From contig CALSPF010000002.1 in NCBI GenBank assembly GCA_943788165.1, forward strand, positions 248,001 through 312,000: a stretch of DNA of 64,000 nucleotides, given 5' to 3'. A model generated the notes under the pieces. It searched no databases, was not told the DNA's origin, and saw only the letters and a list, made by a program, of their open reading frames with translations. The stretch is from an uncultured Flavobacteriaceae bacterium (GTDB lineage: Bacteria; Bacteroidota; Bacteroidia; Flavobacteriales; Flavobacteriaceae). The translations under genes and the position numbers were made by a program. Numbering within the stretch: position 1 is the stretch's first letter; the number at the start of each line of letters is the position of its first letter. Below, one piece after another: positions 4,700-41,327 of the stretch.

Positions 4700-5494
4700 A
4701 TGAAAAACATCCTCGTACCCTTAGGTATTTCTGACAATTCGGAACACACCCTTGGCTATGCAATTGATTTAGCCTCAACCACACAGGCGGCTATTTATGT
4801 CATGGATTCTTTTAATCCAGGTTTTAGAAATGCACATTTACTCAACGTTAAAGAGGTGGTTAACCGCAACAACTTTAATCGTTTAAAAGCGATGGTTAAA
4901 TCCATCGACAACCGTGGATTATCGATTCAAATGGTAGGCTATGAAGGTGACTTTTTGGTTGGGGTAAATGCCTTGGATGAAAAAGTCGGACTTGATCTGA
5001 TCGTTTGTGGCCCCATGCCCAACTCGAATAACGATGCCGTATTCTTGGGTCCAACCGCAGGGCGCTTGGCGAAGAAAACAGATATTCCTGTATGGATTAT
5101 TCCAGAGGGCACCCATTTTCAAACACCAAAAAAAGCACTATTTGCTTTTAAGCAGGGTAAGGTTAAAGGTGAACGCAGTTTACATCCTTTGAAATTTTTA
5201 CAAACTCAATTTGATACTCAGCTTGAGCTACTTTTGGTAAAAACACCTGGAAATAATCGAAAGGAATTACATATAGATCACGAAATAGTTGAGCTTTCTG
5301 ATCAAATGACTTCCTCTGAGAATGCGACCATATACCAAGGTGTACTCGAACATTTCCATGATGTTCATCCAGACATATTGATTGTGTTTGCACGTAAGCG
5401 CGGCTTTTTTGAGAAGCTGATTGAGTCTGATGTGGTCTTCAAGAAAGATTTTTTCACCAAAACCCCCTTATTGGTGATTAAAAACCGCCCATAA
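4700..5494 (+). CDS. universal stress protein, tandem Usp domains
   Basis: This 264-residue cytoplasmic protein starts MKNILVPLGISDNSE, the first strand of a Usp fold. It contains a GPTAGRLAKKTDIPVWIIP segment matching the end of a Usp domain (nucleotide-loop region), then a second, more divergent copy ending TKTPLLVIK. Two-domain Usp proteins of this length are common in Bacteroidota. The ATG at 4700 is chosen because the residues upstream in frame do not fit the fold. It is divergent from queD and one base from the next start, so probably an operon with the LpxR-like gene. Confidence 0.82.
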   Translation: MKNILVPLGISDNSEHTLGYAIDLASTTQAAIYVMDSFNPGFRNAHLLNVKEVVNRNNFNRLKAMVKSIDNRGLSIQMVGYEGDFLVGVNALDEKVGLDLIVCGPMPNSNNDAVFLGPTAGRLAKKTDIPVWIIPEGTHFQTPKKALFAFKQGKVKGERSLHPLKFLQTQFDTQLELLLVKTPGNNRKELHIDHEIVELSDQMTSSENATIYQGVLEHFHDVHPDILIVFARKRGFFEKLIESDVVFKKDFFTKTPLLVIKNRP

Positions 5495-5495
5495 C

Positions 5496-6395
5496 TTGAA
5501 ACGGTTACTTCTTATTGTCTTTTGTGTTTCTTCAGCGATACAAGGAATGTATGGACAGGAGGGGTATTTTAACCTGAGCATTGACAACGATTTCTTTTTT
5601 GTAAACGACATCTATTACACCAGTGGCATATTCTTGCAATATGGGAAAGAAGTCAAGAAAACATCCAGCGACAGTCTTCGCCATTACGATTTGTGGGAAT
5701 TGGGTCAAGAGATTTATACTCCTTCCGATCGGTATTCGGAAAATACAGCTGATTATGATTATCCTTATGGCGGATGGGCCTACCTAAAATACAGCCGTCA
5801 AAAAGAATTGTCACCGAATAAGCAATTCGAAGTAGGACTTCAATTTGGCTTTACAGGAGATTGGTCTCTAGGGCGTTGGTTTCAAAACACTTACCACAGA
5901 GAGGTGTTGGGCCTAGGCGAAAATGCGTGGGTAGATCAAGTTCCTGATGCCGTACATGTCAATTTATTTGCGGGATACTTTCATCAAATAGAATTGGCTG
6001 AACAAATCCACTTTCAGGGCCATATATATGGTCGATTGGGGACTCAGCGAACCGATATTGGTGCTCGATTAGGTTTGAACCTTGGTTTGGCAAAGGCTCT
6101 TGGACTAGCGGCAAACACAGGGTATTTTACAACCCCCGGACAGGCTTTTTATTTTGGGATTGACAGTGCTTATATTGCCCATGATTATATGATTACAGGG
6201 AGCTTATTTAATGAAGAAGCGCCATTTACCAGCGAGCTAGTTCCTTTTAGTCTAGTTGTTGAAACGGGTTTTGCATTACAAGGAGAAAAATGGAAGTTTC
6301 TTTTCCTCTATAAAAACCGTTCCCCAGACAATACCCTGCAACCCAAAAAATCACATCATTTAATGACACTTTCTTTATCTCGTTTCTTTGATTAA
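5496..6395 (+). CDS. lipid A deacylase, LpxR family
   Basis: A secreted outer-membrane protein of 299 residues. It has a signal peptide (about 1-20) followed by an N-D-N-D-F...YTSG segment that matches the start of LpxR-type 3'-O-deacylases, where Asn/Asp and a later Ser and His form the active site. Alternating strands and a final Phe-Phe-Asp suggest a beta-barrel. LpxR removes the 3'-acyloxyacyl group of lipid A. Translation appears to start at TTG 5496, because no ATG fits the signal peptide. One base separates it from the stress protein stop. Confidence 0.78.
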   Translation: MKRLLLIVFCVSSAIQGMYGQEGYFNLSIDNDFFFVNDIYYTSGIFLQYGKEVKKTSSDSLRHYDLWELGQEIYTPSDRYSENTADYDYPYGGWAYLKYSRQKELSPNKQFEVGLQFGFTGDWSLGRWFQNTYHREVLGLGENAWVDQVPDAVHVNLFAGYFHQIELAEQIHFQGHIYGRLGTQRTDIGARLGLNLGLAKALGLAANTGYFTTPGQAFYFGIDSAYIAHDYMITGSLFNEEAPFTSELVPFSLVVETGFALQGEKWKFLFLYKNRSPDNTLQPKKSHHLMTLSLSRFFD

Positions 6396-14478: not shown

Positions 14479-14862
14479 ATGAATAAAGTTAATTATGCTA
14501 ATAGCTTAGCTGAAATGATTCCATGGAATATGACTACTGTAATTAGAACACATTATCGGATGAAACCACACGTCATGGATAAAAAAGTTCAGGAACTGAT
14601 AAAATCATCAAAAGTGAATCATGTATTCTATACCCTTGAAGATGATTTTGAATTAGATTATCATCAGAATATTCAAAAGATAAACCATGCACATTTATTG
14701 ATTCAGGGTTCAGGGACTTTATCAAGGGAGGATATGATTAAACATATGAGGATTAACTCAAAAGCATTATTAGAGATTCAACATATTCGTGGGAAAAAAG
14801 CAATCGCAAAGTATATCACCAAATACATTGATCACAAAAATGCTCATCATAATTTTTTTTAA
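14479..14862 (+). CDS. small HUH-type Rep-like protein
   Basis: A 127-residue protein with features of rolling-circle Rep/relaxase folds: an N-terminal strand (MTTVIRTHYR), then HxH in INHAHLLIQG (about residues 75-84), then a Y-x-x-K motif in KYITKYI (about 111-117). HUH nucleases nick single-stranded DNA through the Tyr. The protein is shorter than typical Reps and the motif reading is by eye. A diverged, frameshifted relative lies at 29663-30032 with the same spacing of motifs. The next gene begins 20 bases on, so they form a pair. Confidence 0.55.
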   Translation: MNKVNYANSLAEMIPWNMTTVIRTHYRMKPHVMDKKVQELIKSSKVNHVFYTLEDDFELDYHQNIQKINHAHLLIQGSGTLSREDMIKHMRINSKALLEIQHIRGKKAIAKYITKYIDHKNAHHNFF

Positions 14863-14882: not shown

Positions 14883-15128
14883 ATGGAAACAGTTGCAGCA
14901 ATAAAACATGGAGGCAGAAAAAAAGGGACTCCAAATCGATTAACAAAGGAGGTTAGGGCAGTACTGAAGGAGGTTGTTTTTGACGAAATATCTCAAATCC
15001 ATCTTCATTTTGAAAAGCTTGATCCCAAAGACAGGATAGAATTGTTGATTAAACTCATGCCTTATGTTTGTCCAAAAATTCAAACAGCGAGCCATAGTCT
15101 AAACGAACCAATTGATTTTGGTTTTTGA
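14883..15128 (+). CDS. small basic helical partner protein of the Rep-like gene
   Basis: This 81-residue protein starts with an AT-hook-like basic segment (GGRKKGTPNR), then an amphipathic helix (LTKEVRAVLKEVVFDE) and a LDPKDRIELLIKLMPYVCPKI stretch split by a turn. A truncated near-copy lies at 24992-25181. More distant relatives of its C-terminal half form the plus-strand part of the repeats at 30.8-34.9 kb. The gene family is not one I can name. It follows the HUH-like gene by 20 bases. Confidence 0.6.
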   Translation: METVAAIKHGGRKKGTPNRLTKEVRAVLKEVVFDEISQIHLHFEKLDPKDRIELLIKLMPYVCPKIQTASHSLNEPIDFGF

Positions 15129-24823: not shown

Positions 24824-24991
24824 TTGTACGGTATTCCTATTTTAAAAGCAACTAGAGATTATAATAACTACATATTAAATTTATTTGAAAACAAAGGAAA
24901 TAGATCATTTGAAGATGTTACAGTAAATAAAATAGACGGGTATTATACTTTAGAAAGGGAACATTTAAGTGATTTGGGAGAAATTATGTCA
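24824..24991 (+). other. open remnant of an unknown gene
   Basis: The frame encodes YNNYILNLFENKGNRSFEDV and LEREHLSDLGEIM, which looks protein-like but lacks a good start. It then shifts out of frame with the copy of the basic partner protein that begins at 24992. Probably part of a lost gene fused by recombination. Confidence 0.3.
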
Positions 24992-25181
24992 ATTAACAAA
25001 GGAGGTAAGGGCAGTGCTGAAGGAGGTTGTTTTTGATGAAATGTCTCAAATCCACCTTCATTTTGTACAACTTGACCCTAAGGAAAGGATAGAATTATTA
25101 ATCAAACTGATGCCTTACGTTTGTCCGAAAATTCAAACAACTAGCCATAGCCTGAACGAACCAATTGATTTTAATTTTTGA
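24992..25181 (+). pseudogene. truncated second copy of the small basic helical protein
   Basis: The DNA from 24992 to about 25203 is a close copy of 14939-15152. It encodes LTKEVRAVLKEVVFDEMSQ through the C-terminus and then similar downstream bases. The AT-hook-like N-terminus is missing and replaced by unrelated sequence. An in-frame ATG at 24969 gives a 70-residue chimeric frame, which I regard as accidental. Confidence 0.65.
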
Positions 25182-27764: not shown

Positions 27765-29063
27765 TTAGATTTCAATAGGTATTACTTTATTAAATAATAT
27801 TGGAGGTAGTTTTTTTAGATACGCTTGTTTTCTGAGCGCATTCCAAATTTTAACAACTTCAAATTCTTCAATTACTTTCTGGTGGGCTTCGTCAACGAGG
27901 TCGATCATATCCTCCCATTCCCAATTTTGGTAATGCTTTTTGATCGTTCTGTCCTGGTGACCAAGGAGTCGATATCGAATTTCTGTTGAAACATTCAGTT
28001 TTAATGCATAGGTTTCAAAAGTTTTCCTCGCCACTTTGAATGGAAATCCCACTACTTTTCTTGATCGTTTGGTATACACATCCCAAACATTGCGATGATC
28101 TTTTTCTTCATATTCAAAAAATTGAAGAAAGCGCCATTCACTTGGATATGCTTTTGGATTTCCAGAGTGTGTATAATGAATAGAAGCTTTGAGCGCATTA
28201 AATAGTTCGTCCAAAGGTTTACACGAAATCAAAATATTCATCAACTCACCCGTTTTACTTCTTCTATGTTTAACGTATCTTTTTGATCCTGTTTCACAAT
28301 CAATGATTTGTTCATGCAAATGCATTTGATCAAAATCTCGGGGATAAAGACCTCTCATAGAGAACATCAATAGCCAGAATGCAAAAGTTTGGTAATCGTA
28401 AATATCTTTTACGTTTTTAACGTTCTTTAGTAATTCAGCTGAAGTTGCTGTTTCAATAATGTTATCTGTTTTTTTAACTCGCCATTTTGCTTTCTTTTTA
28501 AAAGGCTCACCGATCAGTTTTCGCTCATAGGCTTCATTGACAATCACACCGATATGCTTGAGATAGGTTTCAATTGAGCTACCTGAAAGATTGTTTAGTT
28601 TCCACAGCCCCACGGCTTTATCAATTTTCGAAAAGTTGAGGTCGTTAAAGCTGACAGATTTAAGCTCTAAAACCTTCATAAAGGCTAATAGAGAGTATTT
28701 GTAGGAGTTAAATGAGGTAAGCTTCATTTTGGGTTTAAAAACATCCTCAATAAAGCCCATTACATCTGCTTTGGAATCCCCTCCACTCATCCTAGCACAA
28801 AGCTCTTCCCATTCATATGCTCCTGACTCAAACAACACCCATGCTTCTTTAGCCTTTAAGAGAAAAGCATTTAACTTTCGATTAACTTGTGCTGCACCAA
28901 CGCTTCCTTTTTTTACCTGGTACGTGCGTGCATTCCAGTCCTCTTTTTTGATCAATAGACCAATGTTCTTTTTAAAAACTTTTTCTTGTGAAGTGATTTT
29001 AATGAATAGGGGAGATCGGCCGTCTTTATTTTTACCAGATTTTATGTAAATGCCAAATCCCAT
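27765..29063 (-). CDS. tyrosine recombinase/integrase
   Basis: A 432-residue Bacteroidota-type integrase. It has an N-terminal arm-binding domain (IKITSQEKVFKKNIGLLI), a SAM-like core-binding domain (about 110-200) and the catalytic domain. Active-site residues are visible as Arg in SMRGLYPRDF, Lys in HRRSKTGELM, the HxxR-region variant ARKTFETYAL and the GHQ-x6-HYQNW box, with the Tyr nucleophile in KKHYQNW. It lies 150 bases inside the right attachment site and likely inserted the island. Confidence 0.9.
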   Translation of the reverse strand: MGFGIYIKSGKNKDGRSPLFIKITSQEKVFKKNIGLLIKKEDWNARTYQVKKGSVGAAQVNRKLNAFLLKAKEAWVLFESGAYEWEELCARMSGGDSKADVMGFIEDVFKPKMKLTSFNSYKYSLLAFMKVLELKSVSFNDLNFSKIDKAVGLWKLNNLSGSSIETYLKHIGVIVNEAYERKLIGEPFKKKAKWRVKKTDNIIETATSAELLKNVKNVKDIYDYQTFAFWLLMFSMRGLYPRDFDQMHLHEQIIDCETGSKRYVKHRRSKTGELMNILISCKPLDELFNALKASIHYTHSGNPKAYPSEWRFLQFFEYEEKDHRNVWDVYTKRSRKVVGFPFKVARKTFETYALKLNVSTEIRYRLLGHQDRTIKKHYQNWEWEDMIDLVDEAHQKVIEEFEVVKIWNALRKQAYLKKLPPILFNKVIPIEI

Positions 29064-29662: not shown

Positions 29663-30032
29663 ATGAATACAGCTAACGATTACGCATCACTTCCTCCAGC
29701 AATTCCAATGGAACTACTTCATCACTTGTAGAACACCTTATAAGATTCACACCATGACAGTGAGAAACTGGCTTACAAAGCTTCTAAATAGCTCTAATAA
29801 GGTAGAACAGGCATTCTATGTATCAGAAAGAGACAAGGGAGATTACAATAACCTACATGTTCATATGCTTATTGGCACTAATACAGACATGACCTATCAG
29901 GAAGTTAAATATGGAATGGGGAATGTATCAGTAGGAGACTATCAACCAATCTATGATAGTGAAGCAGTGTGTAAGTATGTAACCAAGCATATAGGTAAAG
30001 ATGTGGACTATGACATTGTATTTAAAAGCTAA
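29663..30032 (+). pseudogene. frameshifted second HUH Rep-like gene
   Basis: ATG 29663 begins MNTANDYASLPPAIP, which aligns with the start of the gene at 14479 (MNKVNYANSLAEMIP), and ends at TAG 29729. A +1 shift near 29715-29721 restores the match: FITCRTPYK, then VEQAFYVSERD, the HUH-type NNLHVHMLIG and YVTKHI. So it is one gene of about 122 codons broken by a frameshift. ATG 29754 could still give a 92-residue product with the HUH and Tyr motifs. Confidence 0.6.
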
Positions 30033-30780: not shown

Positions 30781-31005
30781 TTTTAAACCACAGGCATATC
30801 ATCTTCAGTAAGTTCTGGGATTTCTAATCCCCTTAAATAGGTTAAACTAACATTTATAGAAGATTTAATAGCTTCTTTAGACGTAAATGAGTTAGACGCT
30901 AACCAGCGCATTAAGATGCTTCAAATAGCCTTACAATACACTTTACCAAGAATGAAACAAGCTAATAATGAAGTGAGTGAAAACTTGCCTTTGTTTATTT
31001 TATAG
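30781..31005 (+). repeat. array repeat R2 (full form)
   Basis: The longest copy. Left arm 30781-30850: on the minus strand it encodes LTYLRGLEIPELTEDDMPVV and a stop. Right arm, about 30850-31005: on the plus strand it encodes LDVNELDANQRIKMLQIALQ, TLPRMKQANNEV, ENLPLFIL and a stop. The right arm resembles the C-terminal half of the protein at 14883. So the copy carries the 3' ends of two convergent genes. Confidence 0.75.
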
Positions 31006-31046
31006 TTGGTGTTATATTTGCGGTATATTTAACTTAAGCTATTCAT

Positions 31047-31724
31047 TTGAAAAAATTATTATTTATACCAATCCTTTTATTAGTTCTTTTTAGCTGTTCA
31101 CCAGATGAAGAAACCATTTGCACTGACTCAGAATTAGGTGTTAATTGTCAAGGTGCGGACTATATTCAAAATTCTGATTCCCCATATGTTCTTCCTTGGG
31201 AAATAGGAAAAACCTTTTCTATTGGTCAGGGTAATTGTACAGAAGGGTCACATCCTTTCGGCCAACTTCAATTTGCTTATGATATAAATATGCCAATAGG
31301 AACAAAGATAGTTGCTATGAGGTCAGGAATAGTTGTTAAGGTTATTGAAAGTTATGAAGACCTCGAATCTGGAACCGTTGGTCTTCTGGATGAAGCAAAC
31401 TTAATTAATGTAAAACACGATGATGGGACTGAAGCTCAATATGTTCATTTGACTTTAAATGGAGCGCTAAAGAATGAGGGTGATTCTGTTGTTCAAGGTG
31501 AAGTCATCGCACTAAGTGGAAACACAGGAAAAACTACAGGACCTCATCTTCATTTTCAGGTTATTCAAGCATTAACAGAATGTGAGGATACAGACCCTCG
31601 TGAAAATTATACTTGGTATTCTTGTAACTCGATACCGCTCACTTTTAAAAATACTTCCGAACATTGTCTTGGATTGTTAGATTCAAATTTTAAGCCAAAT
31701 GGCTATACAGCAGAACCATACTAA
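31047..31724 (+). CDS. M23 family peptidase-like lipoprotein
   Basis: The 225-residue product starts at TTG 31047, giving a lipoprotein signal with Cys 17 (LLFSC). The catalytic fold is the LytM/M23 metallopeptidase: SHPFGQLQFAYDINMP (His and Asp of the zinc site), NVKHDDGTEAQYVHL and GKTTGPHLHFQV (HxH). It would act on peptidoglycan or short peptides in the periplasm. A TATATTTG -7-like box lies about 30 bases upstream. It sits between repeats R2 and R3. Confidence 0.78.
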   Translation: MKKLLFIPILLLVLFSCSPDEETICTDSELGVNCQGADYIQNSDSPYVLPWEIGKTFSIGQGNCTEGSHPFGQLQFAYDINMPIGTKIVAMRSGIVVKVIESYEDLESGTVGLLDEANLINVKHDDGTEAQYVHLTLNGALKNEGDSVVQGEVIALSGNTGKTTGPHLHFQVIQALTECEDTDPRENYTWYSCNSIPLTFKNTSEHCLGLLDSNFKPNGYTAEPY

Positions 31725-31751
31725 TTTCTATATCAGACTTTCTGGACAAAC

Positions 31752-31875
31752 CTTTTAAACCACAGGCATATCTTCTTCAGTAAGTTCTACAATACACTTT
31801 ACCAAGAATGAAACAAGCTAATAATGAAGTAAGTGAAGACTTGCCTTTGTTTATTAGAGTAAGTTCTGGGATTTG
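31752..31875 (+). repeat. array repeat R3 (composite)
   Basis: The left arm as in R2 (CCACAGGCATATCTTCTTCA) is joined directly to the terminal part of the right arm (CAATACACTTTACCAAGAAT to TTTGTTTATTAG). A further AGTAAGTTCTGGGATTT follows, so pieces of more than one copy are joined. Confidence 0.7.
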
Positions 31876-31931
31876 TGATTTTTCAATTATTTTTTTATGT
31901 TTGAGTATTATTAATCATAAATCAAATTAAA

Positions 31932-32336
31932 ATGAATATCAAAACAATTTTTAAAATTAATATAGCGTTAATGTTCCTTCAAGCACTTCCATTGTATATT
32001 TCTTTATTTTCTCCTGAATTTAAAATGATGCTTACAACTGACGCTTTTGGGTCAGACCCATCACCAGATGCAATAATAATTTTTGAACAATTTGCTTTAG
32101 TACTTGGATTATTAGTTCTTGGGATTATCTCCCTCATATATGGCTCACTAACTTTCAATGATATTAATGTTTTAAAAAGAATATCATTCCTTTTGTTTGC
32201 TTTATCTGGATTCTTTGCCTTACCCGATTTAATTAATGTTTTTACAGGTCAACCAACTGCTCCACTACCTGTAATAATTATGGGATTAATAACACTAGGA
32301 TTATTTTATTACGGTTCTAAAAAAGGAACTATTTAA
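31932..32336 (+). CDS. four-helix membrane protein
   Basis: A 134-residue protein with four hydrophobic helices (about 5-25, 48-68, 78-96, 108-126). No family recognised. It has a clear TATGTTTG -7 box (31897-31904) and a leader similar to those before 18885 and 26677. Its stop codon TAA lies inside the first bases of repeat R4. Confidence 0.6.
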   Translation: MNIKTIFKINIALMFLQALPLYISLFSPEFKMMLTTDAFGSDPSPDAIIIFEQFALVLGLLVLGIISLIYGSLTFNDINVLKRISFLLFALSGFFALPDLINVFTGQPTAPLPVIIMGLITLGLFYYGSKKGTI

Positions 32337-32395
32337 ATCATCGGGATATCCTCTTCATTAAGTCCAGGAAGAAAAACACAGAGTAGAAATATTAT
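32332..32395 (+). repeat. array repeat R4 (left arm variant)
   Basis: TTTAAATCATCGGGATATCC, then TTAAGTCCAGGAAGAAAAAC and AGAGTAGAAATATT. The minus-strand reading ends ...LPELNEEDIPMI-stop, a diverged relative of the R2 left arm. The same variant recurs in R9. Confidence 0.6.
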
Positions 32396-32411
32396 AAGTA
32401 TATTTAGGAAA

Positions 32412-32597
32412 ATGAAAAACCTCTTAAAAAAGCTTTTTTTTTACTTCCTTCTCTTTACAGGTATGATACTTTCAACTTCCCATTTAGGGGATAATTATAT
32501 GGGTATAAGTGATGAAGAGGGTTATTTATTAGCTATTGGAATCTGTTGTTTAATGGCTTTCTTTTTAGAATACTTCTTTCCAAAATTTAAAAACTAA
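32412..32597 (+). CDS. small membrane protein
   Basis: A 61-residue protein with a Lys-rich start, two membrane helices (about 8-24 and 40-55) and a loop YMGISDEEGYLL. Unknown family. Second gene of the R4-R5 cassette pair. Confidence 0.5.
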   Translation: MKNLLKKLFFYFLLFTGMILSTSHLGDNYMGISDEEGYLLAIGICCLMAFFLEYFFPKFKN

Positions 32598-32653
32598 TTA
32601 AATACCTAACTCCCTCCCTAATACTTTGAGATAGAATTAGTAAATTTAGGAAT

Positions 32654-32906
32654 ATGAAACAATTGCTAAAAAATTATCTTAAAGACCCACTCTCAACAAT
32701 TGCTAGTTAACACTACAATATTTATAATGGGGTGTTTATTTTTTGGTTCTTTAGCCACTTTTGGTATAGTATCAGAATTTGTTAGGGATTATAATGACCC
32801 CCCTCAAAACATTAGGCATCAGCATATTCAGCAGCATATGGATGAGCAGATTAAATACAATGAAATGATTAAACTACTTGACTCAATTAACCATAAACTT
32901 GATTAA
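32654..32906 (+). pseudogene. small membrane protein, probably frameshifted
   Basis: ATG 32654 encodes KQLLKNYLKDPLSTIAS and a stop (TAA 32708). The +1 frame from about 32700 continues naturally with TTIFIMGCLFFGSLATFGIV and a soluble helix to LLDSINHKLD. Joined, they give a normal N-terminal amphipathic start plus membrane helix, so one base was probably gained. A TTG start at 32700 would otherwise give 68 residues. The stop TAA (32904-32906) lies within R5. Confidence 0.45.
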
Positions 32907-33009
32907 ATCATCGGCATATCATCTTCAGTAAGTTCTTCAATACACTTTACCAAGAATGAAACAAGCTACTAATGAAGTAAGTGAAGACTTGCCTTTGTTT
33001 GTTTTATAA
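32902..33009 (+). repeat. array repeat R5 (composite)
   Basis: TTAAATCATCGGCATATCAT...AGTAAGTTCT joined to TCAATACACTTTACCAAGAA...TTTGTTTGTTTTATAAG. Almost the same join as in R3, so the two are related by duplication. It begins at the stop codon of the preceding gene. Confidence 0.7.
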
Positions 33010-33093
33010 GTTTTATATAAAGCTGATTGTTTTCTCTATAAATCAATTTTTTAAAACTCTGAGGCTTGACTAAAAATAGAATTGTAAATTATT

Positions 33094-33218
33094 TAATAGA
33101 CTCTTTAGACTTAAACTAATCAGCGTATAAGATGCTTCAAATAGTCTTAAAATTCACTTTACCAAGAATAAAACAAGCTACTAATGAAGTAATTGAAGAC
33201 TTGCCTTTGTTTATTAAT
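33094..33218 (+). repeat. array repeat R6 (right arm only)
   Basis: Starts with a degenerate ...GACTCTTTAGACTTAAACTA, then CAGCGTATAAGATGCTTCAA and the TTGCCTTTGTTTATTAATT end. It resembles the plus-strand right arm of R2 with small deletions. Confidence 0.65.
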
Positions 33219-33227
33219 TATTTTAAC

Positions 33228-33449
33228 TCAAATAAATGTTTTTAATAAAAGTCCTAGACCAACACCTGCTATAAAAACAGTGATAACCTTGATGGTGAAA
33301 AACCATTTGAACCCTCTTTCCCAAGAATCAGGAATATAGTTTTTATTTTCATCTTCGGATTTTCCTGTGCTAGTTACATAATAGGCATAGCTAAAGACTC
33401 CGCCTACAAGAACAAAAGTAAAAATAATCGTGGATACAATTTCATTCAT
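33228..33449 (-). CDS. small two-helix membrane protein
   Basis: A 73-residue protein with two membrane helices (about 5-24 and 50-70) joined by a polar loop (STGKSEDENKNYIPDSWERG). Its 3' end lies just beyond R6, and it faces the other cassettes. Function unknown. Confidence 0.55.
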   Translation of the reverse strand: MNEIVSTIIFTFVLVGGVFSYAYYVTSTGKSEDENKNYIPDSWERGFKWFFTIKVITVFIAGVGLGLLLKTFI

Positions 33450-33572
33450 AATGATATGATTTTCACCAATATAGACTAAATTTTGAACTTTTGTTTAGTT
33501 TATTGGTTGTATTTAGGTGAAATGAACCCAAAGGCTTAATAAAAAAAGGGTTTTAGTCATTAGTAAAATAGC

Positions 33573-33718
33573 TGATAGACTCTTTAAACATAAATGAGTT
33601 AAATACTAATCAGCGCATTAAGATGCTTCAAATAGTCTTACAATTCACTTTACCTAAACTAAGAAGTTCAGAAACCACGAAGAAACTTTATAAGGATTTA
33701 CCGCTGTTTATTGATTAA
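33573..33718 (+). repeat. array repeat R7 (right arm, second subtype)
   Basis: Encodes IDSLNINELNTNQRIKMLQI, FTLPKLRSSETTKKLYKDLP, then LFID-stop. The first half equals R2; the end is a different but homologous C-terminus, so at least two paralogous genes contributed to the array. Confidence 0.7.
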
Positions 33719-33726
33719 ATAAAGCT

Positions 33727-33767
33727 TTAAAAACAGTTTTGTAAATTGTATTGATAAATTAGATATT
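33727..33767 (+). promoter_or_regulatory. duplicated promoter/leader, copy 1
   Basis: TAAAAACAGTTTTGTAAATT and the following GTATTGATAAA closely match 35930-35968 before another cassette gene. The unit includes a TTTG-like -33 region. Confidence 0.5.
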
Positions 33768-34217
33768 ATGAAAAAGCTACTTCTTATTTTATTCTTAGTT
33801 CCTATGGTTTCGTTTGGGCAAAATATTGAATACATCAACAGCAAAGAACACAAGCGCTCTGGTATGCCATTCTCCCAAGCAACTATTGTTAATGGTGTTA
33901 TTTATCTATCAGGACAAATAGGAGAAGTTAATAATGTAGTTGTTGAGGGTGGTATTGGTCCTGAAACGAAACAAGCCTTGGATAATCTCAAAAGTATTTT
34001 GGAGGATATGGGACATTCAGTAGAGGATATATTTAAATGCACCTGTATGTTATCTAACATTAAGGATTGGCCTGAAATGTCAAAAGCATATGTGGAGTTT
34101 TTTAATAGAGAAAATCTTCCCGCAAGAAGTGCTTTTGCAGGGAGTGGTTTAGCTTTAGGTGCAAAAGTGGAAATAGAATGTTTGGCATTATTTAAAGGGA
34201 TGAAAATAAATAAATAG
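33768..34217 (+). CDS. secreted RidA/YjgF family protein
   Basis: A 149-residue protein with a signal peptide (about 1-17, ending SFGQ). The RidA fold follows: YLSGQIG, ETKQALDNLKSILEDMG, KCTCMLSNIKDWPEMSKAYV and the conserved ENLPARSAFAGSGLALGAKV containing the imine-deaminase Arg. Cytoplasmic RidA hydrolyses reactive enamines/imines; a periplasmic form is typical of some Bacteroidota. The stop overlaps R8. Cassette between R7 and R8. Confidence 0.85.
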   Translation: MKKLLLILFLVPMVSFGQNIEYINSKEHKRSGMPFSQATIVNGVIYLSGQIGEVNNVVVEGGIGPETKQALDNLKSILEDMGHSVEDIFKCTCMLSNIKDWPEMSKAYVEFFNRENLPARSAFAGSGLALGAKVEIECLALFKGMKINK

Positions 34218-34253
34218 TCTTGCAATTCACTTTACCTAAATTAAGAAGCACTG
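34210..34253 (+). repeat. array repeat R8 (short right arm)
   Basis: TAGTCTTGCAATTCACTTTA then CCTAAATTAAGAAGCACTGA equals the middle of R7. It begins exactly at the TAG stop of the RidA gene. Confidence 0.6.
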
Positions 34254-34333
34254 AAAGGGCAGAGCATCAGAATAGCTTCTAAACACCTAAATTAAATGAT
34301 AATAAAGCCTTATGGGGTATATCTCGTATCAAC

Positions 34334-34349
34334 TGTGACATAAGTCACA
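34334..34349 (+). promoter_or_regulatory. Crp/Fnr-type palindrome
   Basis: TGTGACATAAGTCACA, a perfect 6-bp inverted repeat with 4-base spacer, 55 bases before the start at 34405. Identical half-sites occur at 38653 and 39933. Confidence 0.6.
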
Positions 34350-34404
34350 AATATCATTTGTAAATAGATGTAAATTTATTTATTAATCATAAAATAAATT
34401 TAAA

Positions 34405-34794
34405 ATGAAAAAATACATTCTTTTAATGACTGTGGTCTTAATTTCAACTTTTGCATTTTCGCAAAATCAAGAGCGATTAAGTGTTCACTATTTTGATATT
34501 CCAGAGAGTTTAGAAGCGGAGCTTATGGAATTTAATAAAAAATTAAATCAAGAAATTGAAAATGCTGGGTTTGGAAAAAACTTTTATAAAATATACAAGG
34601 TAAAGGCAGATAATAAAGCTAAAATGTATAACTACCTTCAAATAAGTTCATATACCAGCGATAAGCACTATGAAATGACTCACGATGTGAGCGACCAATA
34701 CAATAAACTTTTAGATGAATTCTGGAGTTCAGATGTTGCAAAAGAATTTGATAAAAACAGAATATATAGAAAAGTTTATAGAATTGATAACTGA
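34405..34794 (+). CDS. secreted protein, unknown, Crp-site promoter
   Basis: A 129-residue secreted protein (signal peptide about 1-19, FAFSQ). The mature part alternates helix and strand (ESLEAELMEFNKKLNQE...KMYNYLQISSYTS), perhaps a dimeric alpha/beta-barrel as in ABM-type proteins. It is a cassette gene that also carries a Crp/Fnr-type palindrome upstream and a leader like the one at 31932. Confidence 0.6.
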   Translation: MKKYILLMTVVLISTFAFSQNQERLSVHYFDIPESLEAELMEFNKKLNQEIENAGFGKNFYKIYKVKADNKAKMYNYLQISSYTSDKHYEMTHDVSDQYNKLLDEFWSSDVAKEFDKNRIYRKVYRIDN

Positions 34795-34802
34795 CCAATA
34801 GA

Positions 34803-34936
34803 TAAAGATGCTTTGAGTTGGATTACATTTTCTATTGCCTAGGCTAAGAAGTACAGAAACAACAGAGAAACCTCATAAGGATTTACCGCTGTTTATTTAG
34901 TAAGTTCTGGAAGAAAAACACGGAGTAGAGATATTT
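34803..34936 (+). repeat. array repeat R9 (composite)
   Basis: AAGATGCTTTGAGTTGG, then TTTCTATTGCCTAGGCTAAG...GGATTTACCGCTGTTTATTTAG, homologous to R7, then TAAGTTCTGGAAGAAAAACA and GGAGTAGAGATATT, homologous to R4. Left-arm and right-arm pieces are joined in an order different from R3. Confidence 0.65.
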
Positions 34937-34987
34937 TAGAGTTTCTTATATTAGTAAATTATTAATAATAAATCAATATAAAATTCA

Positions 34988-35458
34988 ATGAGACAAGTTA
35001 AATCAATATCAATTTTGTTAGCTCTTTTATTTGCAATTACCAGTTGTAAAAACACAATACATAAAGACTCGATTGTTATAAAAAATGCTGATTCAAATGA
35101 GTTAATATTCATTTTAGAGATGAATACTAAAAACAATGTGAAAGCTAAAATAGAAGACTTTACTCAATATCTATCTGATTTTATAGTTGAGAGAGAACCT
35201 TCAACTATTTATGGATACTATCTTTCAGAAGATGGAAAGAAAGTAACATTGATTGAGAGGTATAACAATAGTTTAGACGGAATCAAGCACGGCGAAGACT
35301 TTATAAATGGTCCAAATTTTCAAAATTTTTTCAAGTTTTTTGAGATTGAAACATTCATTGTTTTAGGAAAAGCATCTGATGAGTTCAAGAAGTTTTGTTC
35401 AGAAAATGGATTTGTAATAAATTATAGAGAATCCATTGGAGGATATATCAGAAAATAA
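34988..35458 (+). CDS. lipoprotein with ABM-like domain
   Basis: A 156-residue lipoprotein (Cys about 20, AITSC). It contains KNNVKAKIEDFTQYLSDFI and TIYGYYLSEDGKKVTLIERY, reminiscent of dimeric alpha/beta-barrel (antibiotic biosynthesis monooxygenase) domains. Cassette gene between R9 and R10; its TAA stop is directly before R10. Confidence 0.55.
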   Translation: MRQVKSISILLALLFAITSCKNTIHKDSIVIKNADSNELIFILEMNTKNNVKAKIEDFTQYLSDFIVEREPSTIYGYYLSEDGKKVTLIERYNNSLDGIKHGEDFINGPNFQNFFKFFEIETFIVLGKASDEFKKFCSENGFVINYRESIGGYIRK

Positions 35459-35523
35459 CAAAACCACAGGCATATCTTCTTCGGTAAGTTCAGGCACTTC
35501 TATCCCCCTTAAATACGTTAAAC
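35459..35523 (+). repeat. array repeat R10 (left arm)
   Basis: AAACCACAGGCATATCTTCT, TCGGTAAGTTCAGGCACTTC and TATCCCCCTTAAATACGTTA. The minus-strand reading is SLTYLRGIEVPELTEEDMPV, then V, with a divergent end. It follows one base after the lipoprotein stop. Confidence 0.7.
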
Positions 35524-35557
35524 TTGCGTTACTTATATTTGTGTTAACTAAATTATC

Positions 35558-35931
35558 GTGAAAAAACTTCTTATTCTTTCAGTTTATTTTTTGGATATAG
35601 CTGTTCGCCAACTCATTTTATTTCGCCAAAAACTATCAACTTGCCTTTGTATTCTAAAAGTAATAATGCTAAGGAATTAGTTCGGTCAAAGTATGGCGCC
35701 CCTTTAAAGATTGAAAATCAAGTAAAACAAGAAATATGGATTTATAATTATAGTAGTTCAATAAAAAGTAATAGAACTGTCATTTTTGATAATAACGGCA
35801 AAATCATTAATAACAAGAAACACTACAAGATGTTTCATATGATAACAGGATTAAATAGATATTCATTTATTATTCTGGGCGTTGTAGTCGGTGTGGTTTT
35901 AATTCTCCCACCTTTTCCTGCGTTGCTCTAA
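35558..35931 (+). pseudogene. small lipoprotein, BamE-like, with frameshift in signal
   Basis: GTG 35558 encodes KKLLILSVYF, a signal start, but the frame then fails. The +2 frame reads ...LFFGYSCSPTHF (lipobox SC) and continues with GAPLKIENQVKQEIWIYNYS, VIFDNNGKI and a membrane helix near the end. It resembles SmpA/BamE-type lipoproteins. A length change in the T-run at 35584-35592 would explain it. If functional, it may be a different start; ATG within gives a shorter form. Confidence 0.45.
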
Positions 35932-35968
35932 AAACAGTTTTGTAGATTGTATAGATAAAATATATAAT
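35930..35968 (+). promoter_or_regulatory. duplicated promoter/leader, copy 2
   Basis: TAAAAACAGTTTTGTAGATT then GTATAGATAAAATATATAAT is a diverged copy of 33727-33767. Confidence 0.5.
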
Positions 35969-36139
35969 ATGAATTACAAAATTTTGATGTACACAGCTGC
36001 TACTCTGATTGTAGCAAACCTTTTGATTGGATTATTCTCTAATTTTTGGGGTGACTCTAATTATCCTGATTACATCAACAGTATTTTAATGTTGCTTCTA
36101 ATTATTTCTGGAACACAAGTGTTTTCACAAAAGAAATAA
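35969..36139 (+). CDS. tiny membrane protein
   Basis: A 56-residue frame with two hydrophobic segments (about 8-24 and 37-52), probably real given the copied promoter upstream. No family recognised. Last gene of the cassette array. Confidence 0.5.
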   Translation: MNYKILMYTAATLIVANLLIGLFSNFWGDSNYPDYINSILMLLLIISGTQVFSQKK

Positions 36140-36495
36140 AAACGCCAACAAACCAGTCTGGGGAACTTGCCCTAGTAATTAGAAGTAACTAACGTAAATA
36201 TACACTACAAACGTCCTCTAACAGGGGCGTTTTTTTGTACACCAAAAACCTAACTTCAATAATTGTACTCCATAGTCTATTTTAGAGCCTAGGTGAAATA
36301 TAGTAGAAGCTGCTTAGGGAATAGATTAGGGTCTTCTCTTGTCACTAAACTATAAAAAAAAGACCGATCTGTTGTGCTAGCGAAGAAACTTTTGCTTACC
36401 TCCCTGGGCGAAAGATAATCGTCTTCACAAAAAGTGGTACATTTATTCTGAAGGAACGATTCGGATAAATTTACGCAAAACATAAGACCAAATTA
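36140..36495. other. gene-free end of the array
   Basis: Contains a terminator (36208-36236) and otherwise no supportable gene; a 64-codon minus frame here (36289-36483) lacks start and family signals. The region between 36241 and 36495 serves as the upstream region of the alginate lyase gene. Confidence 0.4.
36208..36236 (+). terminator. terminator at the end of the array
   Basis: AAACGTCC/GGGGCGTT stem with TCTAACA loop, then seven T residues. Confidence 0.7.
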
Positions 36496-37554
36496 ATGAA
36501 AAGATCAACTGTTAAAACTGCATTAGGAACACTTATAAGTTTTAGTTTTCTCGTGCTATTAAGCGCTTGTTCGTCTACAACCAAAAAGGAAAAGCAAGCC
36601 CAAAGAGCGGCCGTTTATCCTAGCGATGTTTTACCTTCTATGGACCAATGGAAAATTCTTCTAGGGGATGGAACCTACAAAGATTCGTTGCTTAACTATG
36701 CGAAAAAAGATTATTTCTATGTAGAAAATGAAGATCAAACCAATTGGGTAGTATACAAAACACCCAATGCTGGGGTAAGTTCAAAAAACTCGCACAATAC
36801 GCGTACAGAGCTGGGCCAAATAAAGGAGTGGACTCCAGAAGAAGGGGGGAAACTAAACGGGACATTAAAAGTACAACATGTTTCCACTTCGGGCGATGCA
36901 CGTGTTGCCGCTTCTTATTCGGTGGTTGTTGGACAAATACACAGTCATCAAGGGCACGAAAATGAGCCGTTAAAGATATTTTACAAGAAGTTCCCTGGCC
37001 ACGAAAAAGGATCGGTCTTTTGGAATTATGAAATCAATACCCAAGGGAGTAATTCAGGCAGATGGGATTATTCTACCGCCGTTTGGGGCTACGATATGTC
37101 GGTGCTTGGAGCAAGTCCAGACAGCTACCCCGAGGAGTTCGAGGACGGGATTGCCTTAGGAGAAGAGTTCTCTTATGAGGTAAATGTTTTTGAAGGCATT
37201 ATGTACCTAACCTTTACAAGTGACGGACATCCAACTCAGCGATTCACCAAGAACTTATTGAAATCTGAATTCGCTAAAAAAGAAGACATGCCGCAGCAAA
37301 TTAAAACACTCTATGCAGCCATTGGACGAGATGGTGTTGAACGTGAAAATGCCTATGCTGGCGAACTACAGTTCTTTAAACAAGGGGCTTATAATCAGAC
37401 CAACGGAAAAAGCCCCGAAGATAATATAGTCTGGAGTACAGGTTCTGCTGTGTATGGCGGGGATATTGAACAGCAATATGCCAACGGATCCTTTACAGAA
37501 GTTTGGTTTAGTGCGGGTTCTCTAGGACCCGGAACTAAACCCGAACTGGAGTAA
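36496..37554 (+). CDS. alginate lyase, polysaccharide lyase family 7 lipoprotein
   Basis: A 352-residue lipoprotein (Cys about 25, LLSACSS) with a PL7 jelly-roll catalytic domain. Signature segments: NTRTELGQ (R-x-E-L type), VVVGQIHS (QIH) and the C-terminal FFKQGAYNQ, variant of YFKxGxYNQ. It cleaves alginate by beta-elimination at the cell surface, fitting a macroalga-associated lifestyle. It is followed by a terminator and a PIG-L pseudogene. The motif Q in FFKQG differs from the usual A/V. Confidence 0.9.
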   Translation: MKRSTVKTALGTLISFSFLVLLSACSSTTKKEKQAQRAAVYPSDVLPSMDQWKILLGDGTYKDSLLNYAKKDYFYVENEDQTNWVVYKTPNAGVSSKNSHNTRTELGQIKEWTPEEGGKLNGTLKVQHVSTSGDARVAASYSVVVGQIHSHQGHENEPLKIFYKKFPGHEKGSVFWNYEINTQGSNSGRWDYSTAVWGYDMSVLGASPDSYPEEFEDGIALGEEFSYEVNVFEGIMYLTFTSDGHPTQRFTKNLLKSEFAKKEDMPQQIKTLYAAIGRDGVERENAYAGELQFFKQGAYNQTNGKSPEDNIVWSTGSAVYGGDIEQQYANGSFTEVWFSAGSLGPGTKPELE

Positions 37555-37602
37555 TTCGCTGAGAGGGAATTTTATTTTTTTACCAAGCGTGAAGAAAATA
37601 TA

Positions 37603-37634
37603 AAAGCCCTGGCGCCATAGGCGCAGGTTTTTTT
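37603..37634 (+). terminator. terminator of the alginate lyase gene
   Basis: GCCCTGGCGCC/GGCGCAGG imperfect stem followed by seven T residues, 50 bases after the stop. Confidence 0.7.
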
Positions 37635-37976
37635 GTGTGTGAGTGAGGATGATGTTTGGCGCAAAATCACGGATGATTTCGGCCAGATGTGCTTCCCTTT
37701 CTGGATTAATTAACATTGGGTAGTCACCCAATCCAAGCATTGATATGTACAGCCCAGTATATTTGATGCTTTAGTCGATATTTCATGTCGTGCTTCTTTC
37801 ACACTTTCTATGCTTCGGTTTGGGTCTTCTTTCCACAAATTACCCGACTCTCCTCTTTCTAGATAGGAAAGGGACAGATTCAACACCTCTCTTCCAAGTT
37901 CTTTTGTTTTTGCAATAATTCCTCCGGCTCTCCACACAAAATCTGCAGCGTGAGCCCCAACAACGAGTAGTCTCAT
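37630..37976 (-). pseudogene. PIG-L/LmbE-type hydrolase, frameshifted and truncated
   Basis: From ATG 37976 the frame gives MRLLVVGAHAADFVWRAGG (PIG-L zinc motif, AHAADxxxR variant of AHPDD), SLSYLERGESG and CTYQCLDW, then leaves frame at a G run near 37722. The +1 frame resumes with GDYPMLINPEREAHLAEIIR and APNIILTHTQK before the sequence ends in the terminator. A single G loss plus 3' truncation explain this. Intact homologues are about 230-260 residues and include 4-oxalomesaconate hydratase-like enzymes. Confidence 0.75.
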
Positions 37977-38097
37977 AAAATTAATTTAAGCAAAAATAGA
38001 TGTTTTAACGCCTATCAAATTAGAGCATCAAACAAAAAAATAGTACAAATCGAACATCTTTTGAAACTTAATCCTATCTCTGAGTGTTTTCTGTGCA

Positions 38098-38134
38098 AAA
38101 AAAACACCTCTAACAGTTAGAAGTGTTTTTTGAA
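38098..38134. terminator. bidirectional terminator-like hairpin
   Basis: AACAC(c)TCTAAC/GTTAGA(a)GTGTT stem with A run before and T run after; it lies 38 bases beyond the stop at 38172 on the minus strand. Confidence 0.7.
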
Positions 38135-38171
38135 TAAGATTAGCGTAAATCTAGCCGTTATTTCTCTTGCA

Positions 38172-38597
38172 TTAATTGTGTTCTGGCATTTTCCCCCAAA
38201 TACCGATAATAAACATGGTAGCAATTGTAGCATACATGATCATTGAAGGTACATCTGGTCCAAAAGCTGCGGGACCATCAACGACCGTTTGTCCCCAATT
38301 GACAATATATGCCTCGGCTAAGGTGGAAATTTGTACTCCCGCTTCTTTCAATTCAGACAGCTGAAAAGAAGTGTTTTTTTGCTGCGTTATTAGATAAGAA
38401 GCGACCTGTAACCCAAAGAAAATTGGAAAAGAACAAAAGAGAGTCAAAACCACTTTCCCATAGACGGGAAAGTTGAGTTCCCGGGAACGTCGGATTAAAT
38501 AAAAAGCCAAAGCAGTCATTAAAATAACAGCAACAGTGTATATCGCATTATTGATGAAAATTTGATTGGAGAGTTGAAAAATTTCGAATTCAGTCAT
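38172..38597 (-). CDS. membrane protein under possible Crp/Fnr control
   Basis: A 141-residue protein with helices at about 18-36, 49-68 and 118-134 and a polar loop. The family is unknown. Its promoter region is shared with the divergent Crp/Fnr gene, and the palindrome at 38653 lies 56-71 bases upstream of its start. Confidence 0.65.
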   Translation of the reverse strand: MTEFEIFQLSNQIFINNAIYTVAVILMTALAFYLIRRSRELNFPVYGKVVLTLFCSFPIFFGLQVASYLITQQKNTSFQLSELKEAGVQISTLAEAYIVNWGQTVVDGPAAFGPDVPSMIMYATIATMFIIGIWGKMPEHN

Positions 38598-38652
38598 AAT
38601 TATATTGTTTTGATTTATTTTTCTTAATCTACCACTCTTTTATTCAGTTAGT

Positions 38653-38668
38653 TGTGACTTTTGTCACA
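38653..38668. promoter_or_regulatory. Crp/Fnr-type palindrome between divergent genes
   Basis: TGTGACTTTTGTCACA, a perfect 6-bp inverted repeat with 4-base spacer, between the membrane-protein gene and the Crp/Fnr regulator. It suggests autoregulation. Confidence 0.65.
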
Positions 38669-38733
38669 TTTCATTTATTTTAGGAATGGTCCTGTTTAAT
38701 TTTCACTAATTTTAAAAACCAAAACTATTTTTT

Positions 38734-39330
38734 ATGAAGTACAGTGAGATTCTAGGCCAATCACTGAGGGCTGAATTTGAACAAAATGCAACTACCCTCA
38801 AGGTTCCGAAAAACGCGCAAATCATTTCAGTGGGCGATCGCATCAATGATATTCCCTTCTTGGTCTCAGGAACCATTCGAGTTTATGCAGAAAGCTACGA
38901 ATCAGGAAAAGAGGTTTTGCTTTATTACTTAGAGAGTGGTGAAACCTGTTTTATGTCTATCATTGCAGGAATGGGCGATCAAATTAGCAAAGTATCTGCT
39001 GTAACAGAAACGGATTGTGAACTACACAGCTTGCCCAATCTAAAAGTAAAAGAATGGCAACTCGCATATTCTGAATGGAACGGTTTTATATTGGGTTTGA
39101 TGGTTAAAAATTATACCAACACAATCAAAACCATTGAAGAATTATCGTTTCTAAATATTGAGTTAAGACTCATTAATTATCTGCAGAAACACCAAACCAC
39201 AGATGGTGTGACAGAGGTGGTGAAAACACATCAACAAATTGCAAAAGATTTAGGTACTTCACGCGAGGTAATTACTCGCGTACTCAAAAAAATTCAATTT
39301 GACGAAAAGAATATTTTGGTGTTCAAATAA
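38734..39330 (+). CDS. Crp/Fnr family transcription regulator
   Basis: A 198-residue regulator. The N-terminal cNMP-binding-like barrel (about 15-125; GDRINDIPFLVSGTIRVYAE, ESGETCFMS) is followed by a winged helix with HQQIAKDLGTSREVITRVLKK (about 165-187). Cysteines for an Fnr-type Fe-S cluster are not evident. Palindromes at 38653, 39933 and 34334 match the consensus TGTGA-N6-TCACA of such proteins and are likely its targets. Confidence 0.9.
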   Translation: MKYSEILGQSLRAEFEQNATTLKVPKNAQIISVGDRINDIPFLVSGTIRVYAESYESGKEVLLYYLESGETCFMSIIAGMGDQISKVSAVTETDCELHSLPNLKVKEWQLAYSEWNGFILGLMVKNYTNTIKTIEELSFLNIELRLINYLQKHQTTDGVTEVVKTHQQIAKDLGTSREVITRVLKKIQFDEKNILVFK

Positions 39331-39339
39331 GAAAAAAGA

Positions 39340-39366
39340 AAACCCCTCGACGGGCGAAGGGTTCTT
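39340..39366 (+). terminator. terminator between Crp/Fnr gene and its neighbour
   Basis: AACCC(c)TCG/CGA(a)GGGTT stem-loop with A-rich and T-poor flanks; likely serves the gene at 39376 and the regulator, from both sides. Confidence 0.6.
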
Positions 39367-39375
39367 AATGATTTT

Positions 39376-39879
39376 CTAGGCTTTTGTCATCATTGCCGAG
39401 GCAACAAACACAATTCCCTCTGGCCCACTAACAGTATATTGATAGTGTATTTTATTGGAATCATTTGGCATAAGGCTAATCTTCCATGAGGTAACAAAGA
39501 CTTCTTTCTTTGAAGATAAACCACTTCTTTGGGCATCTGTTACAAAGACAAATTCACCATTTTTATTACTTTTTAAAACAGAAACAGGCTTGTTTTGTAA
39601 CCCACAATAATGGGTAGACAAGACTTCATCATTTTGTGCATTAAAAATGGTCAACATTTCGATGCCCCCTGTATCGCTCTCTTCCAAAAGCGCACTTCCA
39701 TTCGAGGTAATGCTGTAATTTAATTCGAAGGCATCAGAGGTACCGTCGGTTCTTTGCAATGTTCCCTGCCATTTTCCTTCCAAGGAAAGGAGTTGTTTGA
39801 AGTTGTCAGAAACATCGTTTGCATAAGAATTCGTAAGGCATAAAGATGCCGTAATAAAGAATAAAAGTATTTTTTTCAT
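39376..39879 (-). CDS. secreted DUF1579-like protein
   Basis: A 167-residue protein with a signal peptide (about 1-20). The mature part has the LLSLEGKWQGTLQRTDG start and alternating strands of a lipocalin-like DUF1579 fold. A Crp/Fnr-type palindrome (39933-39948) lies 54 bases upstream. Confidence 0.65.
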   Translation of the reverse strand: MKKILLFFITASLCLTNSYANDVSDNFKQLLSLEGKWQGTLQRTDGTSDAFELNYSITSNGSALLEESDTGGIEMLTIFNAQNDEVLSTHYCGLQNKPVSVLKSNKNGEFVFVTDAQRSGLSSKKEVFVTSWKISLMPNDSNKIHYQYTVSGPEGIVFVASAMMTKA

Positions 39880-39932
39880 GTAAATAGAGTTTGTTTAATA
39901 AACTTAAATTTAGGAATCTCAGAAAATTAGAG

Positions 39933-39948
39933 TGTGACTTATGTCACA
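39933..39948. promoter_or_regulatory. Crp/Fnr-type palindrome
   Basis: TGTGACTTATGTCACA, same half-sites as 38653 and 34334, upstream of the secreted DUF1579-like gene. Confidence 0.6.
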
Positions 39949-40058
39949 AGAGAAAACAGATCATTTTGATAAAATCATCTCAGTTAAATTTCCTTCAAAA
40001 ATGAGGAGAGCTACAAATTCTCGGGCTTTAATCCTTAAATTTGTTAAAACCATTGTCC

Positions 40059-41327
40059 ATGCGTAAACCCTTCCTCCTTCTTGTTTTTCTTTTTTTGTCT
40101 TGTTCAAAAGACAAAACACCCCCACCTGCTGTTATGTATACACTCATTGTATCAGCGTCTAGTGGAGGATCTGTCAATCCAACAGGAGGGCCTTATACAG
40201 CGAATACAAATGTTGCAGTAACCGCAACACCAAATACAGGCTATGTGTTTTCCCATTGGACAGGTAATGCGAACGGAAACGATAATCCATTGTCCATTAG
40301 TATGTCTGGAAATAAAAGTATTCAGGCAAATTTTGTCCAACAGCAGTTCACCCTTGAGGTCAATGTTCTTGGAGAAGGCAGTATAAGTCAATCTCTAATT
40401 AGTACAAGTAAAACAACGCAAGATTATACGGCTGGCTCTGTGGTGCGTTTATTAGCATCACCCTCGAGCGGGTGGTTGTTTTCGGGTTGGTCGGGAGCAA
40501 TAGAGGGGAGCGACAATCCGTATGATGTTACCATAAATGAAGCCAAGACAATAACAGCGAACTTCCAAGAACGACAAGCTGGAGAAGCGGTGGTTTTAGA
40601 GGCTGATGGCCCAGGAGGTACTTACGATCTCATTACCTCTGTGCTGGCCCCTGGATGGAGTCCCATCGAGGTGCCCGATTGTAATCATGCGGCCTTTGGT
40701 GACCATATAGATGAAATCTTCGACGAAAGTTTAGCAAAACATGTCTTCCGATTTTACATCCATCCAACGCCAGACAACGACCGCTGTATTAATTTTGACC
40801 GACAGCGAAATGAAATTAAATCCTACGATAAATCTCCAGAGAACTTATTGGGTCGAGAAGGAGAACGGGTAACCTATCAATGGAAGTTTAAGCTCCCAGC
40901 TGGGTTTCAATCTTCCCCAAAATTCACCCATATTCACCAAATTAAATCAGTGGGCGGTGATCTGGCCAGCATGCCGATTTATACTCTTACGACGCGAAAA
41001 GGCACACCAGATCAATTGGAATTGCGCTATGCAGAAACCGAGAATCAAGGCACCTTAACACGAACGGATTTAGCCCCATTCATCGGTCAATGGGTTGAAG
41101 CAACCGAAACCATTGTCTATGGTGTCAATGGAACCTATAACCTTGAGCTTAGAAACGCCCTTACACAGGAAGTTCTTTTGAGTTACGCTAATCCGTCGAT
41201 AGTAAATTGGCGTCCCGGAGCTAGCTTTGCCCGCCCGAAATGGGGGGTCTACCGCAGCTTAGTGTATGCCGAAGATTTGCGCGATGAAGCCGTTTTGTTT
41301 GCCGACTTTAGTGTGACGGAGGACTAG
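40059..41327 (+). CDS. InlB-repeat lipoprotein with polysaccharide-lyase-like domain
   Basis: A 422-residue lipoprotein (Cys about 15, LFLSCSKD) starting at ATG 40059. Two divergent InlB B-repeats (about 27-95 and 100-170; YVFSHWTGNANG, WLFSGWSGAIEG) precede a jelly-roll-like catalytic candidate (about 180-420) with KFTHIHQIKSVGG, ELRYAE and RPKWGVYRSL, which recalls PL13/PL14/PL20-type lyases. The exact substrate family is not determined. The repeats resemble those at 42866-45415. Confidence 0.65.
   Translation: MRKPFLLLVFLFLSCSKDKTPPPAVMYTLIVSASSGGSVNPTGGPYTANTNVAVTATPNTGYVFSHWTGNANGNDNPLSISMSGNKSIQANFVQQQFTLEVNVLGEGSISQSLISTSKTTQDYTAGSVVRLLASPSSGWLFSGWSGAIEGSDNPYDVTINEAKTITANFQERQAGEAVVLEADGPGGTYDLITSVLAPGWSPIEVPDCNHAAFGDHIDEIFDESLAKHVFRFYIHPTPDNDRCINFDRQRNEIKSYDKSPENLLGREGERVTYQWKFKLPAGFQSSPKFTHIHQIKSVGGDLASMPIYTLTTRKGTPDQLELRYAETENQGTLTRTDLAPFIGQWVEATETIVYGVNGTYNLELRNALTQEVLLSYANPSIVNWRPGASFARPKWGVYRSLVYAEDLRDEAVLFADFSVTED

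Follow-up and report, generated by a model that had tools for sequence, protein, structure and literature searches.

A gene for a Crp/Fnr-type regulator and three copies of one palindrome, TGTGAC-N4-GTCACA, lie together in a 64,000-nucleotide stretch of DNA from an uncultured marine Flavobacteriaceae bacterium with a small genome (the whole of which we call the window), and one of the copies stands before a gene in an array of short genes. This leads us to ask whether the palindromes are operators of that regulator, and how a gene of the array came to carry one. Our answer, which we regard as likely when taken as a whole, is that the regulator activates a very small regulon through this palindrome and that the array gene was recruited to it later; we infer binding, activation and recruitment alike from sequence comparisons.

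The palindromes reported in the initial annotation at 34334 (TGTGACATAAGTCACA), 38653 (TGTGACTTTTGTCACA) and 39933 (TGTGACTTATGTCACA) are all exact and lie at those positions; no other match in the window comes closer than three mismatches. Our scan of the whole genome (G000; 2,179,721 bases, 2.18 Mb in 4 contigs, 94.6% complete) returned four exact copies where about 0.06 would be expected (Markov expectation 0.056 for the genome, 0.0016 for 64 kb; P ~4e-7 for at least four), so the motif is not one that is frequent at random sites. The reversed control pattern has one exact match genome-wide, against four for the palindrome, and the only copy with one mismatch lies inside a coding frame. That a Crp/Fnr-type regulator is accompanied by matching palindromes, one of them before an array gene, is borne out, and the observation is stronger than had been claimed.

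CRP operators follow the rule TGTGA-N6-TCACA and, in the class II position, are centred near -41. All four palindromes of this genome lie 51-55 bp 5' of a start codon (ATG) and have a -7 box, TAnnTT, 20-21 nt downstream, in the form TAAATTTA at three promoters and TAGATTAA at that of the divergent membrane-protein gene (Table 1). Since 1.9% of upstream positions carry TAnnTT, the chance of a box at all four promoters is about 2e-6. With the box at this distance and the predicted transcription start a few bases beyond it, the centre of the palindrome would fall near -41, and on this predicted start the four promoters fit a class II Crp-dependent layout, with a fixed distance between operator and box. 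TAnnTTTG, the longer form, is quoted in PMC10309648 as the promoter element of Bacteroidetes.

A genome scan for a half-site with the box at the same spacing found the four palindromes and four other places without a second half-site; because it yields only four full combinations of operator and box, the regulon in this genome probably consists of just these promoters. The initial annotation spoke of a local regulon of four genes; the regulon comprises four promoters with four or five genes, and it is not purely local, as the fourth promoter lies 331 kb away. The regulator shares the intergenic operator at 38653 with the divergent gene and so could, though it need not, be one of its own targets, and since the side facing the regulator has no box at the right spacing, autoregulation is weakly suggested.

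Table 1. Features of the predicted regulon and of the adjoining array unit (window coordinates unless a contig or locus is given).
Feature	Coordinates	Strand	Basis	Remarks
Truncated 3' end of the MPRPKGSPNK gene (73 aa)	34214..34264	+	tblastn	directly precedes the operator-bearing unit
Operator	34334..34349	+	exact match	within array unit; TAAATTTA 21 nt downstream; 55 bp 5' of 129-aa gene
Array gene, secreted 129-aa protein	34405..34794	+		unnamed family; probable target
Next remnant of the 73-aa gene	34802..34903	+	DNA match 77%, tblastn	after 129-aa gene
Divergent gene, 141 aa	38172..38597	-		hydrophobic; unnamed family; probable target
Operator	38653..38668	-	exact match, TGTGACTTTTGTCACA	intergenic; 55 bp 5' of the 141-aa gene start, TAGATTAA 21 nt downstream; 65 bp 5' of the regulator
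Crp/Fnr-family regulator, 198 aa	38734..39330	+	Pfam, alignment of 30 relatives, orthologues
Secreted 167-aa protein	39376..39879	-		unnamed family; convergent neighbour of regulator; predicted target of 39933
Operator	39933..39948	-	exact match	53 bp 5' of the 167-aa gene; TAAATTTA 20 nt downstream
Fourth palindrome	G000:C2:618578-618593		exact match	outside the window; 51 bp 5' of the 229-aa gene
Secreted 229-aa gene	L005:5838-6527	-		behind the fourth palindrome; predicted target

The regulator belongs to the Crp/Fnr superfamily, with matches over the cut-off to the Pfam domains cNMP_binding (PF00027, 34.8 bits, 1.6e-8) and HTH_Crp_2 (PF13545, 27.6 bits, 2.8e-6). Its recognition helix, SREVITR, has the CRP-like pattern R-E-x-x-x-R, and from the contacts made by CRP such a helix suits a TGTGA half-site. 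When the protein is aligned with Vfr, the Glu, Arg and Ser of the cAMP pocket are found to be replaced by Phe, Lys and Val, which makes cAMP unlikely as its ligand; the CRP equivalog model scores it at 57 bits (cut-off 266). Its only cysteines are Cys72 and Cys95, and its sequence contains no Fnr-type N-terminal Fe-S cysteine cluster. Together with the sulfane-sulfur and redox genes among which its relatives are found, this leaves a link to oxygen or nitrosative stress without support. Cys72 is invariant in 30/30 relatives and is the sole cysteine kept across the family. By analogy with these relatives, our guess is that the inducer may be a thiol-reactive or sulfur-related signal acting through Cys72, and we infer that within this Cys72 family the regulator forms a branch whose targets have become secreted and membrane proteins. 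We found no description of the regulator, or of a sulfur regulon in Flavobacteriaceae, in the openly accessible literature searched, and scanning genome_contigs with the regulator as single protein gave no match.

Searches of Pfam, NCBIfam and PDB returned no family for the target proteins. The divergent 141-aa protein is probably a membrane protein with four transmembrane segments, as judged by eye from its sequence (hereafter the 4-TM protein). The site at 39933 does lie before a secreted gene, as had been described, the gene being corrected here to the minus-strand frame 39376-39879, whose orthologues (80% and 72% identical) keep the site. A common origin of the 129-aa and 229-aa targets is not supported, as the two proteins have no significant likeness in BLASTP. 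The 229-aa gene is followed by a carboxymuconolactone-decarboxylase-like gene (L005, about 5150-5640, minus strand) that is frameshifted in the genome or in its assembly and intact in the congener G003, where further secreted genes come after the 229-aa gene (L166:1954-2790), two of them with a degenerate operator of their own. The regulator module is flanked by an alginate lyase 2 family gene (36496-37554) and by a polysaccharide-lyase-like gene with InlB repeats (40041-41327, plus strand).

The phylogenetic footprint is our best evidence that the predicted operators belong to the adjacent regulator. Among 18 congeners, many of them incomplete, the regulator has orthologues at 79% identity in G003 and at 64% in G010, and a more distant one at 44% in G015. 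The order of secreted gene, regulator and divergent 4-TM gene is retained in G003 and G010, and both have an exact operator before the 167-aa orthologue even though the flanking DNA has diverged. In G003 an operator with one mismatch occupies the same place as 38653, between regulator and 4-TM gene, with no clean box on the side facing the latter; another, with two mismatches and TAGATTTG at 21 nt, precedes the 229-aa orthologue (83% identical), and the two further secreted genes have operators with one and two mismatches. The exact operator of G010 is its only one, with none near its 4-TM gene, and G015 has an operator with one mismatch before the regulator, with TAAGTTTG at 22 nt. No exact operator was found in the other 16 congeners, G015 included, and these also have no close orthologue of the regulator; within the genus, exact sites thus occur in 3/3 genomes with a close orthologue and in 0/16 of the others (p = 0.001). 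One of them, G013, has kept the 4-TM gene (73%) and has neither close regulator orthologue nor operator. A conserved module with a retained site, and the joint absence of exact site and close orthologue from 16 congeners, argue for a real, small Crp regulon.

The same palindrome reaches beyond the genus. Combined with TAnnTT at 20-21 nt it occurs at 47 places in 36/397 genomes of the family, and its reversed control at none. These composites (L074-L103) precede genes which, by names read from the sequences, encode persulfide dioxygenase, sulfide:quinone reductase-like and DUF2892 proteins as well as OsmC, ArsR, peroxiredoxin and similar proteins, and some lie near a relative of the regulator (G027). 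The palindrome is therefore not unique to our regulator, since in other genera related Crp proteins use it at different genes, and the family-wide composite looks like an undescribed sulfane-sulfur Crp/Fnr regulon. At least one such relative is encoded in the genome studied here, at C2:168936, with 35% identity to the regulator and a position in a SulP/persulfide dioxygenase operon.

The remaining operator lies in the mobile-looking array (30.7-36.2 kb). Between the genes of this array stand 3' fragments of a gene of 73 aa (MPRPKGSPNK...EDLPLFID), which is intact in other congeners (L105, L107, L112). The operator is placed within one array unit, 70 bp past the truncated remnant. The initial annotation called these units cassettes, a term that is not supported in the integron sense and is acceptable only as a loose word: matches to the integron integrase model TIGR02249 in this genome, which is 94.6% complete, are all below the cut-off (two Xer-like frames), and the separators, compared by tblastn and DNA match, are coding remnants of the 73-aa gene. 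The array (30783-35973) is made up of small, mostly secreted genes and also holds a minus-strand remnant ending in ELTEDDMPVV; longer relatives of the 73-aa gene occur at 14883-15128 and near 24990-25151. Next to the array are a tyrosine recombinase of the Bacteroidota arm-DNA-binding type (27765-29063, minus strand) and two short Rep-like fragments (14479-14862 and 29754-30032, both plus strand).

The 129-aa protein of the operator-bearing unit has no relative in Pfam or PDB, and its family is rare, with members in 8/397 genomes of the Flavobacteriaceae and at 29 loci of the species-level collection, among which the closest has 74% identity. The 4-TM gene is present in 6/8 genomes with the 129-aa family vs 13/397 overall (hypergeometric p about 1e-8, uncorrected for relatedness); it lies among similar secreted genes in the g90 genomes and, in L126, next to a gene homologous to 31932-32336, another gene of the array. 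From this co-occurrence and these neighbourhoods, the 129-aa gene seems to belong functionally with the ancestral target of the regulator. It is plausibly an accessory gene that the resident regulator has recruited. A leader shared by 129-aa homologues (TATTAATCATAAA...) was dropped as evidence of descent, since a similar one lies 5' of unrelated genes starting at 18885 and 26716.

Whether such a gene was captured with its operator or adopted by the regulator was left undecided by the initial annotation. Capture, from a donor having the same regulator, would agree with the place of the operator inside the unit, between the remnant end at 34264 and the gene, and for potential donors in the genus sampling is sparse and most genomes are incomplete. 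Against it, no site with fewer than three mismatches was found upstream of the sampled homologues with upstream sequence (7 at the family level, 1 at the genus level and 28 in the species collection, partly the same species), and the regulator-bearing G003 and G010 have no 129-aa gene. We consider capture rather doubtful and favour adoption, because the sampled homologues are without the operator; the simplest reading, which rests on that absence, is that the 129-aa gene gained its operator in this lineage. The more general proposition, that a mobile array of small secreted-protein genes feeds a chromosomal Crp regulon, a unit having gained a class II operator and answering to the resident regulator, we put forward tentatively, as a possibility with less than an even chance.

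Other readings concern the operators themselves. As the palindrome reaches into the -33 region, from which a bound protein might also obstruct the promoter, the sites might be those of a repressor; yet the palindrome replaces the -33 region, and its rigid 20-21 nt to the -7 box, both here and in 36 Flavobacteriaceae genomes, is what would be expected for contact with RNA polymerase, which makes repression unlikely. They might instead be bound by another Crp/Fnr paralogue, such as that at C2:168936, the adjacent regulator being merely a neighbour, and the palindrome does precede, with the same box spacing, genes targeted by related Crp proteins of other genera, which lends this some weight. We nevertheless find it decidedly improbable: no palindrome within two mismatches lies in the 7.5 kb around the operon of that paralogue, and congeners having only such paralogues have no exact sites, which track the local regulator. 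That the palindromes are chance matches is contradicted by their computed frequency, spacing and conservation, and deserves practically no credence.

Activation by the adjacent regulator, which we prefer, would proceed as follows. A dimer would bind TGTGAC-N4-GTCACA centred near -41 and, from this class II position, activate promoters with a Bacteroidota -7 box, driving the divergent 4-TM gene, the convergent 167-aa gene, the 129-aa gene of the array and the distant 229-aa gene. The 4-TM and 167-aa targets would be ancestral to the lineage of the regulator, and the 229-aa gene would have been a target already in the common ancestor with G003. The 129-aa gene would have been recruited later from a wider set of marine-flavobacterial secreted genes, its operator being acquired in this lineage.

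With a regulon that is small and fully enumerated at four promoters, that leaves a footprint in three species and that has what appears to be a recent addition, the wiring of accessory genes to a host regulator could be tested one promoter at a time. The findings also point to a broader rule that links Crp/Fnr operator and promoter in Flavobacteriaceae, apparently not described before, which marks sulfane-sulfur genes. If the tentative proposition of an array feeding the regulon is true, regulon members supplied in this way would make the recruitment of an accessory gene by a specific transcription factor traceable, and the Crp branch of marine Flavobacteriaceae in which it took place would be an undescribed one that senses thiols.

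Compared with known systems, the array resembles integron gene cassettes in its tandem short unrelated genes separated by related repeats, but it differs in having no integrase at the cut-off and repeats that are 3' fragments of a coding gene instead of recognised attC sites; unlike an integron cassette, the unit described here has its own predicted regulated promoter. With E. coli CRP and Pseudomonas Vfr the regulator has in common the fold and the R-E-x-x-x-R recognition helix, and SREVITR together with four exact sites conforms to the CRP type of helix and operator, whereas the residues of the cAMP pocket differ and CRP acts at hundreds of promoters, as against four here with a Bacteroidota -7 box. 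The oxygen and nitrosative regulators Fnr, Dnr and HcpR belong to the same superfamily, but our regulator is without the N-terminal Fe-S cysteine cluster, and the Fnr-type operator, TTGAT-N4-ATCAA, is unlike the present palindrome. A further parallel is found in Crp/Fnr relatives of Flavobacteriaceae that lie beside persulfide dioxygenase, YeeE/YedE and TauE genes, which have the palindrome, the 20-21 nt to TAnnTTTG and the invariant Cys72 in common with it at about 31-39% identity. Their targets are sulfur enzymes, while our regulator's targets are secreted or membrane proteins that fall in no named family, and most of these relatives have an SRVV helix where our regulator has SREV.
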